The notes under the pieces are model-generated. The model was not told the origin of the DNA. It worked only from the letters and a program-made list of their open reading frames with translations, and did no database searches. The position numbers and the translations under genes were made by a program. DNA of 63,521 bases from Galdieria sulphuraria (taxonomy: Eukaryota; Rhodophyta; Bangiophyceae; Galdieriales; Galdieriaceae), in NCBI RefSeq assembly GCF_000341285.1, contig NW_005178466.1:1-63521 (forward strand), read 5' to 3'. How positions within the stretch are numbered: position 1 is the first letter of the stretch; each line of letters starts with the position of its first letter. Below are positions 40,795 to 62,259 of this stretch, one piece after another.

Positions 40795-40938
40795 AGTCAA
40801 GTTTGTCTCCGCAAATTTTTTATGTTGAAAGAGTAGGACAAGGATTGAAAATAACACAAGTTTTGAACATATTAAGGCTATGAGCTGATTTAAGAGATAT
40901 AAAAAAGTGAGTAAAAAATTGTTTTGGTTGGGTGGAAT

Positions 40939-41743
40939 ATGATTTCAACAGCGCTTTTTGTTACACACTTGAATATTCAATCCAAGCAATCAAGTTTTAC
41001 CTGTCGCGGTTGCTTGAGTTGGAAAAGCAAGGCTATTTTTCAATATTGTCTCTTTCGAAGGAGCTTCATCGGGAAACGAAACAAATCTCTTTCACTGTTT
41101 TCAGTACAGACAGGTTGGAATCGGAGGGTTTTATTGCAGACTGTAGCCTGTCTTTGCACTTTGCCTTTTTTTCATTCGTGTCTTGTTCATTCAGCTAGTA
41201 ATGATGAAGTTGTGCTTCCTGATGGAGTCCGGTTTTGGTTAGTGAAAAGAGGTACTGGGAAGGTACATCCAGCTTTAGGGTAAGAAGATATTTACCAACG
41301 ACTAAAACACGGGAAATATGTATTACTCTAGAGACCTTGTTGGTATCCGTTTTCGTGCCAAATATGGAGACTATGTATTTGACGACATTATGGAGTCTGA
41401 GCAGCCTTACTACTTGAGGATTGGCAGTAACATTGTGATCCAAGTTAGTACTGTTGTACCATCTGTTGAGAATACTGTTGAGTTTTAGGGCGTCGAGGAA
41501 GTGTTACCATTGATGAACGTGGGTGATTTGGTTCATATTGTGGTTCCAAGCAATGCAGCGTTTGGTTCCAAAGGAAGGAGAGCTAGTCCAGGAAAGAGAG
41601 CTATTCCGCCAAATGCGACCATTGAGGTATTGTTTGAATAGTTCACAGTTACGCCGCTCAAATATTTACTCTAGTACGACTTGGAACTTGCGGAACTCCC
41701 CGGAAAAGAGGATTTCACGCCGGAAGTACTTGATTCACCTTAA
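40939..41743 (+). CDS. FKBP-type peptidyl-prolyl isomerase, predicted thylakoid-lumen
   Basis: FKBPs catalyse proline isomerisation. A long leader (about 75 residues) is followed by a twin-arginine and hydrophobic segment, NRRVLLQTVACLCTLPFF, then the mature start after HSASNDEV. That bipartite form points to Tat-type import into the thylakoid lumen. The domain shows VRFWLVKRGTGKVHPALG, VGIRFRAKYGDYVFDDI, GVEEVLPLMNVGDLVHIVVP, then SNAAFGSKGRRASPGKRAIP, and YDLELAELPGK. The canonical aromatic active-site residues are only partly present, as in many lumenal FKBPs. Three introns are needed. The start ATG at 40939 opens the leader. Confidence 0.85.
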
Positions 41744-41826: not shown

Positions 41827-42508
41827 TCAAGTCCTATCCGAGATACGTCTCCAATACCAAGGATCGCTTTGTAGCTTTTCTTGAAACTTTTGAAACCATT
41901 TATCTACTAGTGCTAAACCACCTGGGCCCATAGACTGACCAAAAGATTCCACAAAACGAAAAAAATCTGTTGCAATGCCTCGAACTAGAAGCTGAAGATC
42001 CGACTGATCTAGAACAATGGTAGGACTGTTTGGAACTGCTAAAGCTGCTTCCGACATATTTTCAATAGAAATACCCAACTTGAACCAAGTTATCGAAAAC
42101 AAAATGTTTTCCATCGTACTTACTTCTATCATAACATTTTCGGAGGCTGACTGCGCTGGTAACTTTAAAGTGCACAATTTGCTTGGACAATCGTTCCCAA
42201 TCAAACCAACAAAAGACCAGTTTTCATACGGCGGAACGCTACAAAGCATTCGTTCAAGTATCACTTCAGTTTCACAGTAAAGGAACCAACCTCCAATACA
42301 AAGATGCTACTGTGTTCGCAGGAAGAGAAGCGCCAGGTAGCAGAAAGAAAAGAAACGAGGATCCTAAAAACTTGGCTGGAAACTGAGCTACGAATTTTTC
42401 TGGTTGTACCTAAGCATAATGACATTATTATATTCCAAGTACTTCTCATGAGCAAACCTGCTGAAACTGAGTGAATATCGGACAAGACGGGACTCCCAAA
42501 CCGAACAT
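41827..42508 (-). CDS. HIKESHI: Hikeshi/Opi10-like HSP70 nuclear import carrier
   Basis: Hikeshi carries HSP70 into the nucleus during heat stress. The start MFGLGVPSCPIFTQFQQ joins via an intron to VQPEKFVAQFPAKFLGSSFL, FFLLPGASLPANT, then VPPYENWSFVGLIGNDCPSK, GISIENMSEAALAVP, and the C-terminal WFQKFQEKLQSDPWYWRRI. These match the family's N-terminal jelly-roll-like and C-terminal helical parts in order and total length (about 200 residues). Two introns are required. The HSP70-binding FLLPG-type segment (compare FMLGTIPFP) is kept. It lies 80 bp downstream of the CPO-like gene on the same strand. Confidence 0.85.
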
Positions 42509-42588: not shown

Positions 42589-44052
42589 CTAAAACCACCC
42601 AATATAACCGAGAGGATCTATTTGTGAACTATTTCTACCCGAGCGAAGTTCTGCAATAACTTTTGCAGCAGCTGTACCTGGTGGAGGAAAGAGATTAAAA
42701 CGCCACATAGCCAAGGGTGCTTCTTCACAAAAAGAAGATTCCAAAACTGTGCCTCCTGATAAACTATACGTGTCCCAAGTATAACTGGATTCTGCAGATG
42801 GATCGAGATGAAAGAAACCCAAGTGAGGATTCCTACTCTTGTTTCGCTTCAGTTGCTTGAAAGACGGGCTTTGTTTGCGAGTCAACGGCAAATAGCTAAA
42901 ATTGGAACTTTTGTTGAGGAAATATTGCAAAAAGAATGCTTACTTACACAGATAACAAGGAATCCATGACATCATTCGTGAAAGCGAAAGCTCTGGATCG
43001 TCCACGTTCAACCGTGTCAAAATCTCCTAATAGGTTTCCAAAGGGAATGGGTTCTTGTGATGGGTCGCGAACGAAAGGAATGATGGAGCGGTGTTTCTCG
43101 CATAACTGTTTCCAATGACTATAAACAAGTTTTGCCTCCTAATGACATGGTATGAGATCATCATATTTGTACAAAGTTGTATAGTCACTAACTTTGGCAA
43201 ATATACTAGTTGAACTCGAGGCAGAAATAATCAAGTCGACGCTACCAACAAACCACCAAAGGCCTCCATGATTTAACTCAAAGTAACGTACTATCGATAG
43301 TAATGAAAGCACTCTTTCAAATTTATAGTCAACTTACAATCTGCACGAAATATTGGTGTATGCACGTTCCTGGGTTCTAAAAAGAGACTAACTCCGGCAA
43401 TGTCTAGGTTTTCAGTAAGTGGTGTTGCCGAGGTCACGTTCAGAGTTTGTACCCAAACAACGTGCGCATTTCTTCTTCCTTGATAGAACCTATATAACTG
43501 CTTTGAAAATACATTTGCACTCCAAGCACTAAGAAGCTACTACCTTCTGCCTATCAGTGGATGTCGTTCTTTTTGAGATGCTCTCCAGACATCGACAAAA
43601 GCTCTGGAGAATTTCCTACCACCCAGCATACGTGAACTTTTTCGGTCACTCCAAATGCTCTTGGAAGGTGGACACCAATTAAATAAGGAAGGAATCTCGT
43701 CTTTGCTCCAGTCACTATCCGACCCGCCCTGTATACTACTGTAGTCGGACAAACTACTGTCATCCTTGGCATCTCCACAACTATAAAATTTACCCAATCC
43801 GTCGACTTGTGCGGTATCTTTGCAGATGGATTCTTGTGCCCTTAGAGCCAAGAAGGTAAAAACGTCAGCTGCCGAGAAAGGAGCACCCGAGCTTTCCAGA
43901 CTCAAAGACGACTTGAGACTAGTATATTTTCCAAGTTTAGAATACACAGGTAAACGTTTTTTTCTGTGACAAAATGGGCAATGAAACGGTCTCTTCAAGA
44001 GGTAAACCTGAACTAGTTGTTGTTGACAGCATAAAAAAGCATTCCAGTGCAT
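42589..44052 (-). CDS. Divergent coproporphyrinogen III oxidase-like protein, catalytic His replaced
   Basis: The protein follows the aerobic coproporphyrinogen oxidase (HemF) layout. A leader is followed by AQESICKDTAQVDGLGKFYS, then AGVSLFLEPRNVHTPIF and CRYFEL, GGLWWFVGSVDLIISA, and a final exon GTVLESSFCEEAPLAMWRFN with a LFPPPGTAAAKVIAELRSGR tail. In true enzymes the third block reads PTxHFNYRYFE and WWFGGGxDLTP; here the His is replaced by Arg and the GGG and LTP residues are lost, while RYFE and one Asp remain. A Ser-rich stretch replaces the usual N-terminal half. Several introns are needed. It therefore looks like a former haem/chlorophyll-pathway enzyme turned into a non-catalytic or altered-function protein. 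The family assignment is from motif order and needs a structure-based check. Confidence 0.62.
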
Positions 44053-56077: not shown

Positions 56078-57773
56078 TCATTTCTGAAACCCAGGCAATA
56101 TCAAACTGGAGTCCTTCTTCTTGGATTGAATGTTTTTCCAATTGCGTTTGGCAATGGATGTGAGTCCTCCTTCAAACCGATCTCTCACACCTTCTAGAGA
56201 GACATTTCCTGTTTCAGGCAGAAAGAAAAACAGCAATATCCAGAAAATGGTAGATAGTGCTGCGTACAAACCAAACACACCAGGCAAGCTCAGTGCGGCC
56301 ACTTGTCTGGAGAAAGTGTAAGTAGAAACAAAAGCGGAACCCAACAGTGTAGAAGCACCCCAAGCCATTCCAATGTTTCTAACGTGGAGTTCATAGATTT
56401 CTCCGTTAAGAGCCCAAGCCAGAGGAGAAATTCCTTGTTCATATCCGATATAGTACAAAGCTAATCCAACAAAGAATCCGATAGCTTTTTTCTTTGGAGA
56501 GTGTTGAAGTATTGTTGTTCCTGAAATGATCAAACCGATGATGAATATGGGGAAAGTGAATAACAATGTTTTTCTTCTTCCCAGTTTGTCCAATAGAAAA
56601 TATGGAGGTATGGTCCATAACAACATCCAGAAACCGATGGGTACAGTCACATATACCGCTTGAAAAGTATCAAGTCCCAATTCCGTGAATATCGTAGGTT
56701 CATAATATCCCAATGCCGTTGCCCCGTTCCATTGTTGGGCCAGTGAGACGAGAAGGCCAATCATGAAAGTAGCCCGAACTCTTGGATTGGTAAATATATC
56801 CTTCCATACGATTCCTGAAGAGCTACTTTCACGTAGTTCCTGTTCTACTCGTTCGACCATTTCATTGTATTCTTGTTCTGAAATGGGAGTAGGTCGGCGG
56901 AAACTTGAAAATGCCTTTTGAGCGTCTTCCCTCCTACCATTTTTGAGTAACCACCTGGGACTCTCCGGAAAAAAGAATACACAAACGAGTTGAAGAATAG
57001 GCCCAATGGCACCAGAACCAATCATATATCTCCATGAACCTGGATGAACATGGATAAATATGGCATCGACCACATCACCCATAAGAACTCCCAAGTTTTA
57101 TAATGAATTGAAAATATTCAAATGAGCACCACGGTGAGATTTAGGAGCTACTTCGGATATATAAATGGGTATGGTCATTGCCTCTGTACCCATTCCAACT
57201 CCCATAATAACTCTTCCCAATAAGAGCACAATAAAGTTCTCTGCAGCAGTAGCCATAACGACTCCAGCAATATATAAGAGTGAAGATAACATCAGAACTT
57301 TTTTCCTTCCAATGAGCCAATTAAATGGCACTGCCCTAACAAATATTTGTATTGATGAAAAAATAGTCCAAGATGAAGGGAATGGTTGCTTACGCAATAG
57401 CTCCAAAAGTAGCACCCAAAGTAGCCCCCGAGGATATCCAAGACCATTCATTGGATGTTAGATGCAATGCTTCGGGAGCAAACAGAGCCACGGAAGACAA
57501 CAATGCTTGATCCATTCCAAACATACTGGAACCCACACATGCTACGAACAGAAAGAATTTTAATAAAGAAGTGGTTCCTTGGTCTTGAGAAACTGTTTCT
57601 TTTTTGCTGTTGTTCTCATCATAATCGACAGATTCCTTCCAGTCGAAATTCTTATACCCCAATTCCTTCTTAGAGGGACTTTGTTCTATCTCATGTGATG
57701 TATGATGCAACTTCCATGCAGACCGTCTGGGAGATTTTACAACCTCTTCGGAGGCAGGATAATGAACTTCCAT
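56078..57773 (-). pseudogene. MFS sugar-transporter gene with an in-frame stop
   Basis: A 12-helix sugar-porter protein: acidic leader MEVHYPASEEVVKS, FVACVGSSMFGMDQALLSSV, PFNWLIGRKKVLMLSSLLYI, LLLGRVIMGVGMGTEAMTIP then IYISEVAPKSHRG, FFFPESPRWLLKNGRREDAQ, LVSLAQQWNGATALGYYEPT, LLDKLGRRKTLLFTFPI, and FFLPETGNVSLEGV. One intron (about 57342-57402, donor GTAAGC) is required. Between HLNIFNSL and NLGVLMGD a TAA codon at 57098-57100 interrupts an otherwise perfect frame on both sides, in a place where the family has an uncharged residue such as Tyr or Gln. It is the only interruption, so this is either a very young pseudogene, an allelic null, or a sequence error. The substrate is unknown; hexoses or polyols are typical for the family. 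Confidence 0.8.
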
Positions 57774-60632: not shown

Positions 60633-62259
60633 ATGATTTCCTTTATGAAGAAAGTGATGGGGTTACCACCCAAGCTATATGTCTTATTAGTAGTATGTAC
60701 CTTAGGAGGAAGCGTGGTTGGAATAGATACTGCTCTGGTTAGCGGAGCACAGTTATTTTTTATCACTCGATTCAACCTGGATACTTCTCTTCAAGGCCTT
60801 ACCATTGCGGCCACTTTGTTAGGAGCACTCGTTGGCGCTGTTTTGTAAGCAAGTAAAGAGATAAAATGAAGGTCTCCACTTACTATATTCTTTTTGTAGG
60901 TCAACTATACTGAATAAGTACGTCGGCAGAAAGGGCGCCATGTTCTTTGGTGGTATAGATGCCATTGCTGCCGGTTTGATTGAAGGATTCTCAAATATAT
61001 GGGGAATACTTTTATTGGGAAGGCTGATTCTTGGAATATGTTTTGGTATTATGACTAGCACTATTCCAATGTATCTAGCAGAGTGTGCACCGACGGATAT
61101 CAGAGGAGTATTCACCTCAGTCTATCAATTAGCATATGCATTTGGATATTTTATTGGTCTTATCGTTGATGTCATATTTGTACATGTCGAACACGGTTGG
61201 CGCTTTATGCTTGCTTCTGTCATTGTGCCTGCAGCACTGGTAACTTTGGGACTGTTCTTTGCTGCAGAGTCACCGAGATGGTTATTAGCAAAAGGTCGTG
61301 AAAATGCAGCATGGAATTCGTTAACTCAGTTGAGGTCTTCGGAACAAGTAGCTGTACAAGATTTCGATGCTATGCGCCAGTTCTTGGAGAAGGAAAGAGA
61401 GACAATGAAAATACAACCCGGTTTCTTTCGCACTTTTTATGAAAAGCCAAGTGCTCGTCGTCCTATCATGTTGGGAATTGCGTTGCAAATTGCTCAACAA
61501 TTTTGTGGTGTCAATGCAGTGATGTTCTATTTCGACTATGTTTTACAACTTGCTGGGATGACGGCTTCCAGAAGTATCGATGTGAGCGTTGCATTGGGTT
61601 TTGCTACTGTGTTGTTTACATTCCCTACATTTTGGCTCATTGACCGAGTGGGAAGAAGATTTCTTTTATTGAGTACGATGCCATTTCTATCCATCATGCT
61701 TTGGATATGCGGCTTTTCCTTTTTCGGAGGTACCCATATTCGTGAAGCATTGAACATTTCGGGTACTCTATTGTTTCGTTTCTTTTATGGACCTGGATTG
61801 GGTCCCGTTCCTTGGGTGATTGTAGCGGAAATCTATCCGTGGTATATTCGTTCCCAATGCTTAACGATGAATTCGTTTGTTAGTTATATGTTGAACTTTG
61901 TTGTCTCGTTTTCGTGGCCGACGATGCTCAGGTCGATGCATGCACAAGGAGCTTTTAGTTTCTTTGCTGGTTTTACGTTGTTGTCTACTTTGTTCATCTA
62001 TTTGTTTGTTCCAGAAACCAAAGGTGTCGAAATGGAAGCTATTCAACAACTGTTTCAATATCCATTGTATACTATTGCGAAGAAGAATCTAAGCGAAACC
62101 AAAGCACATTTGAGCAAGTGGCCTATTTTCCGCCGTTGTTTTGTATCACCTGAAGAAAAGGAAACTAGAGAGCAAGTGGATGATAACCCAGTTCGTACTT
62201 GTGAGAATGAACAAGAAACGATCAAAACTTCGTTCGAAGCATCGAGTAGTAAAGCATAG
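60633..62259 (+). CDS. MFS sugar-porter family transporter, intact
   Basis: This plasma-membrane-type proton-coupled sugar or polyol transporter has twelve predicted helices. Motifs: LGGSVVGIDTALVSGAQLFF, NKYVGRKGAMFFGG, LLLGRLILGICFGIMTSTIP then MYLAECAPTDIRG, LFFAAESPRWLLAKGRENAA, ALQIAQQFCGVNAVMFYFDY (sugar-binding QxxQQxxGxN), FWLIDRVGRRFLLLST, WVIVAEIYPWYIRSQ and YLFVPETKGVEMEAIQ. One intron (about 60846-60899) is required. The C-terminal cytosolic tail is Glu/Ser-rich. The ATG at 60633 gives MISFMKKVMGLPPKLYVLLV. Substrate specificity cannot be read. It has one damaged and possibly two decayed relatives in this window. Confidence 0.92.

Follow-up and report, generated by a model that had tools for sequence, protein, structure and literature searches.

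A diverged coproporphyrinogen oxidase paralogue that has probably lost its catalytic site in the red alga Galdieria sulphuraria

The window analysed here is a stretch of 63,521 nucleotides of Galdieria sulphuraria DNA (contig NW_005178466.1). On its minus strand, five exons separated by four GT-AG introns of 54, 47, 54 and 52 nt splice into one open frame that encodes a protein of 418 amino acids (47.3 kDa) belonging to the coproporphyrinogen oxidase (CPOX, HemF) family. The boundaries proposed in the preliminary description were exact, with the ATG at 44052 and the stop codon ending at 42589. The gene and its amino terminal regions are as follows:

42589..44052, minus strand: whole gene of the CPOX/HemF-family paralogue, 5 exons and 418 aa, from the GT-AG splice model and a PF01218 match (E 7.4e-12)
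44052-43544, 43489-43338, 43290-43193, 43138-42948 and 42895-42589, minus strand: exons 1 to 5, spliced into one open frame
43888..44052, minus strand: N-terminal extension, residues 1-55, by its composition a putative transit peptide
43783..43887, minus strand: stretch with AQESICKDTAQVDGLGKF, residues 56-90, which resembles the HemF N-terminal helix and is aligned to it by hhalign
43645..43782, minus strand: Ser/Asp-rich insertion relative to HemF, about residues 91-136, from the alignment to HemF

The first 52 residues contain nine Lys or Arg and no acidic amino acids, while residues 85-140 comprise 15 Ser and 8 Asp among 56 amino acids. The neighbours at 41827-42264 (minus strand) and 40924-41650 (plus strand) resemble, by eye, genes for an FKBP-type isomerase (the latter) and a protein of the Hikeshi/OPI10 type (the former) rather than tetrapyrrole genes. 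Two sugar-transporter-like frames were also recognized by eye at 56078-57094 (minus strand) and 60940-62259 (plus strand); together with the short introns and the bilin reductase genes described below, they fit a Galdieria-like red alga.

Membership in the HemF/CPOX family had been suggested from a series of motifs, all of which are present: AQESICKDTAQVDG (residues 72-85), PRNVHTPIFRADLRYFEL (209-226), WWFVGSVDLIIS (232-243) and LESSF...APLAMW (368-381). The assignment is upheld by the Pfam model PF01218 (Coprogen_oxidas), which matches residues 195-402 with 45.0 bits (E 7.4e-12) against a curated cut-off of 31.8 bits. Nine PDB sequences matched the paralogue at E ≤ 1, and all nine are coproporphyrinogen oxidases (E 1.1e-8 to 0.17). 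When residues 196-418 were shuffled, none of 500 sequences reached the true score of 41.7 bits. With a profile of 63 canonical HemF proteins, hhalign aligned residues 58-410 in one piece with a probability of 98.4. The family membership of the paralogue is beyond chance; its score of 35.9 bits against the NCBIfam HemF equivalog NF003727 lies below the cut-off of 297.

A long Ser-rich stretch had also been described as replacing the usual N-terminal half. The stretch itself is evident; the replacement is not, as the hhalign alignment runs continuously from residue 58 to 410 with about residues 91-136 as an insertion, and the stretch is better read in that way. The N-terminal half appears diverged and interrupted, and its homology to HemF appears weak: the true score was equalled by seven of 500 shuffles for residues 56-195, one of 500 for residues 56-95 and 21 of 500 for residues 137-195.

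For the active site, 71 HemF proteins were aligned, of which 63 are canonical (including the alga's own) and eight belong to a divergent bacterial clade; they are what remained of 76 fetched proteins once two fragments and three duplicates were dropped. Human numbering is taken from the alignment to 2AEX with an offset worked out from the construct of PMC13071380, and the numbers may vary by source; the text of that paper names the catalytic histidine H256. The relevant positions are:

43375..43377, minus strand: Glu208 at human His248, a His in every one of the 63 canonical and 8 divergent HemF proteins
43345..43347, minus strand: Arg218 (CGT) at human His258, the active-site His, present in all 63 canonical and all 8 divergent HemF proteins
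43339..43341, minus strand: Asp220 at human Asn260 from the alignment; judged by eye, it lines up with the central Asp of bilin reductases, a register to which the profile-profile alignment gives no support
43223..43249, minus strand: VGSVDLIIS replacing GGGxDLTP, with Asp239 (human Asp282) retained, from the alignment
42772..42774, minus strand: Asp358 at human Asp400, with a deletion of the three DRGT-loop residues that come next, from the MAFFT, hmmsearch and hhalign alignments

The two changes singled out in the preliminary description, Arg for the His of PTxHFNYRYFE and VGSVDLIIS for GGGxDLTP, were seen in all three alignments. Human Arg332, found in 71 of 71 relatives, is Ile284 in the paralogue, and human Gly402 and Thr403, each found in 71 of 71, fall within its three-residue deletion of the DRGT loop. 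Other positions are retained: Arg222 at human Arg262 (Arg in 63 of 63 canonical proteins, Ser in the divergent clade), Asp239 at human Asp282 and Asp358 at human Asp400 (both 71 of 71), and the equivalent of Trp427. We take Asp400, Arg401 and Arg262 to be residues with a part in human CPOX function. Human Arg413, reported among the arginines docked onto the carboxylates (PMC13071380), is Val367 in the paralogue and is an Arg in just 47 of the 63 canonical proteins.

A splice model that restores the active-site residues, a possibility raised with the original reading, found no footing in the DNA. The three minus-strand frames of 44200-42400 contain no DRG, GGGxDL or HRxE, and the four occurrences of HxN in them (44183, 44049, 43838 and 43059) do not fall at the active-site stretch. 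The Arg218 codon, CGT, is one base away from a His codon. Since the CPOX mechanism is described as still unclear (PMC10548856), the loss of one His is not proof of inactivity. Taken over the aligned positions, the loss of the CPOX active site in the paralogue is well supported at the level of sequence. Across the 63 columns conserved to at least 95%, the paralogue retains 21, and the commonest residue of the divergent clade agrees in 35. The retained columns include 10 of 22 hydrophobic and 6 of 21 polar positions (Fisher p 0.35), so that polar loss is not significantly higher and a kept fold with lost catalysis is not demonstrated by column counts.

The search for a second, canonical CPOX gene that had been suggested as a check was successful. 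A single canonical HemF gene (L001) is present on contig 14 as an uninterrupted 394-aa frame that scores 469 bits, and 402 bits against NF003727. The search covered 12.0 Mb in 102 contigs with exons read singly. This exon-wise PF01218 search missed the paralogue of the window itself, so absences from the genome searches are soft; a further PF01218 gene was not found in an exon-wise search that diverged, intron-rich copies could escape. With the spliced paralogue as the query, its own exons and the canonical HemF were recovered, the latter with 27% identity over residues 200-402. Among other tetrapyrrole genes, there is a HemN C-domain match of 30.2 bits, a PEBB gene whose 388 bits pass the PEBB equivalog cut-off (327), and an exon whose best model is PEBA at 205 bits. 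The PEBA score is under its cut-off of 263 probably because only one exon is involved. No third bilin reductase, PCYA included, was found with PF05996 in the exon-wise search of the genome. One HemF each is named for G. sulphuraria (Gasu_19740) and C. merolae (CMO136C) in the available published text, and none of the titles and abstract openings listed from the open-licence literature describes a second, diverged HemF in Galdieria.

Close relatives of the paralogue were not recovered. A collection of viral contigs gave four pattern-matching stretches and a collection of genome contigs gave 21, none of them a relative; algal genomes as such are in neither collection, and records near the source genome may be missing from both. 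The RCCR model PF06405 gave no match, but its control gave none either, so that this negative carries no weight. Against the viral contigs, the canonical HemF had no match and the alga's own PEBB matched 154 stretches, none a relative, while PF05996 was found in none of 398 proteobacterial genomes. In a tree of 32 sequences and 208 columns, the paralogue groups with six Bacteroidota HemF proteins (SH-aLRT 80.6, UFBoot 92) on a branch of 2.98. Long-branch attraction is suspected, and no origin is drawn from this tree. PF01218 proteins of high divergence (80-103 bits) occur in 18 of 80 sampled proteobacterial genomes; eight of these proteins (L072-L079) make up the divergent clade of the alignment, and in them HFNYR is replaced by HIHxS and WWFGGGxDLTP by YWR(M/I)MADLNP.

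It is reasonably probable that this is a real gene under constraint, nucleus-encoded and with a product probably targeted to the plastid, a CPOX paralogue in which the CPOX reaction has most likely been lost and the fold and tetrapyrrole binding have most likely been kept, making it either a pigment-binding pseudoenzyme or an enzyme with a new chemistry. A new function is likely. The CPOX reaction would be lost along with the active-site His, Arg332 and the DRGT loop, and the canonical HemF encoded elsewhere would cover that step; since the canonical copy performs this job, the paralogue could do without CPOX chemistry. The protein would retain the CPOX fold, would reside in the plastid and may bind a tetrapyrrole in the old cleft, where Arg222, Asp220, Asp239 and Asp358 occupy family active-site positions. 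The preliminary reading of a non-catalytic or regulatory protein is partly supported, by the family membership, the residue losses, the canonical copy and the intact frame; because the equivalents of Arg262, Asp282 and Asp400 are kept, another chemistry is possible.

CPOX acts as a homodimer, and a canonical partner exists in the genome. The paralogue might then be a regulatory pseudoenzyme that pairs with the canonical HemF, tuning or blocking it to set tetrapyrrole flux when the alga grows on sugar or oxygen is scarce. Regulatory pseudoenzymes have been described in many other families. In Galdieria the pathway can back up at the CPOX step: G. partita excretes coproporphyrin(ogen) III when grown on glucose, and G. 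sulphuraria 074G does so at low oxygen (PMC4747464). The same paper, however, ascribes the excretion to oxygen limitation of the CPOX step alone. Heterodimerisation is also doubtful for a protein that shares 22-27% identity with the canonical HemF in the C-terminal half and keeps 21 of 63 conserved columns, and a role of this kind is considered unlikely.

An active enzyme with a changed substrate, in the manner of the tolyporphin HemF2, is a fairly unlikely alternative in view of what has been lost, namely three DRGT-loop residues and a His that all 71 aligned relatives share. The active-site His and the DRGT-loop residues act in decarboxylation. On the other side, the equivalents of Arg262, Asp282 and Asp400 are kept and neofunctionalisation of HemF has a precedent, as the tolyporphin HemF2 is reported to decarboxylate protoporphyrinogen IX (PMC10548856).

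A pseudogene in recent decay, its frame still open by accident, could account for the very long branch (2.98) and the many family-invariant residues that were lost beside a canonical copy. However, neither a stop nor a frameshift interrupts the 418 codons of the five exons in a protein that is 22-27% identical to the canonical paralogue. In neutral simulations to 60, 50, 40 and 27% identity, limited to substitutions, none of 200 runs at any level remained free of stops; the mean number of stops ranged from 11 to 19 (19.3 at 27% identity) and the minimum at 60% identity was three. Codon usage, expressed as log-odds after training on four further frames from the same genome, is positive for the spliced frame (0.124) and negative for the other five, and the GC content is 0.434 in the exons compared with 0.314 in the introns. 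The gene looks constrained; the stop-free frame, the codon usage and the GC content of the exons argue against a relic, which is very improbable.

Least credible of all is that the paralogue is the missing phycoerythrobilin-to-phycocyanobilin isomerase of Galdieria and, more broadly, of red algae without PCYA, an acid-base tautomerase that uses Asp220 on the fold of CPOX and the bilin reductases. Phycoerythrobilin would be bound in the old porphyrinogen cleft, and a double bond would be moved by acid-base catalysis without electrons. In G. sulphuraria, phycocyanobilin is reported to arise from phycoerythrobilin through an isomerase activity that was confirmed in extracts, in a fraction of >60 kDa, and to which that paper assigns no gene (PMC13193486). 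PEBB and PEBA in the genome with no third bilin reductase found is a situation that calls for an isomerase, and the region after residue 55, at approximately 41 kDa, would be larger than 60 kDa as a dimer. The CPOX enzymes are reported to share the bilin-reductase fold (PMC13193486, PMC10151467), and a central Asp is critical in the bilin reductases (PcyA Asp105 and GtPEBB Asp99; PMC6755814). This Asp lies in P-x-x-G-x-D-L, where CPOX has P-x-x-H-x-N if the flanking FP/HP and D-x-x-P motifs are used to match up the two families by eye. The change of Asn260 to Asp yields PIFRADL, comparable to the P-x-x-G-x-D-L of the reductases and to PFFGADL in the alga's own PEBB, and the spacing of Asp220 matches by eye that of PcyA Asp105 on strand S4.

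When scored with a motif matrix built from 22 bilin reductases, the paralogue is the highest of 72 CPOX-family proteins at this site (9.06, next 6.08), yet residues 55-67 of the paralogue, a non-homologous site, reach 13.2, and the reductases from which the matrix was made have scores of 24-35. Since residues 55-67 outscore the Asp220 site, the motif match is within chance. An hhalign comparison of the paralogue with the bilin reductases is not significant (E 0.51), and profile-profile alignment gives no register between CPOX and the reductases. The absence of PCYA is itself soft, as the exon-wise search with PF01218 missed the gene in the window. The published homology search of G. sulphuraria listed, besides PEBA and PEBB, a single CPO (PMC13193486). 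A ferredoxin-dependent bilin reductase was rejected as an identity for the paralogue, there being no PF05996 match at E ≤ 1 and the hhalign E value again being 0.51.

As a CPOX-family protein that lacks the active-site His and whose frame is maintained beside a canonical copy, the paralogue is a candidate source of new tetrapyrrole biology among Galdieria-like algae. It touches two matters in the literature, the gene for the phycoerythrobilin-to-phycocyanobilin isomerase (PMC13193486) and the way in which flux backs up at the CPOX reaction (PMC4747464).

Compared to canonical HemF/CPOX enzymes such as the human (2AEX) and yeast (1TKL) proteins, the paralogue is homologous in its C-terminal half (residues 195-402). 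It differs in the replacement of His258 by Arg, His248 by Glu and Arg332 by Ile, the deletion of three residues of the DRGT loop, the change of GGGxDLTP to VGSVDLIIS and the presence of a Ser/Asp-rich insertion. The alga's own canonical HemF belongs to the same family, and both proteins have, by eye, an N-terminal extension before the domain. Their C-terminal halves are 22-27% identical; the canonical gene is uninterrupted and encodes the HemF residues, whereas the paralogue has four introns. The bilin reductases PcyA, PebA, PebB, PebS and HY2, which are ferredoxin-dependent, are reported to share the CPOX fold and PIFRADL resembles their Asp105 strand motif, but they have no significant sequence or profile similarity to the paralogue.

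It is not unusual for an alga to have more than one HemF-type gene: P. tricornutum has three (CPOX1-3), and several copies are also reported in Guillardia and Bigelowiella (PMC11914136, PMC5115734). In the available text of these papers, the copies are treated as pathway enzymes and the loss of an active-site His is not mentioned. The tolyporphin HemF2 is likewise a HemF paralogue with a changed role beside a canonical HemF; it is described as part of a cyanobacterial gene cluster and active as a decarboxylase (PMC10548856), whereas the Galdieria paralogue is known here from its sequence. The divergent bacterial clade is also distant from canonical HemF (branch 3.93) and has 10-13% identity to the paralogue in the C-terminal half. 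Unlike the paralogue, all eight of its members retain His248, His258, Arg332 and the DRGT loop including Thr403; Asp282 and Asp400 are kept in these eight as in the paralogue. The clade is thus a useful control, since it lies at a similar distance from HemF and yet has kept the active-site His.
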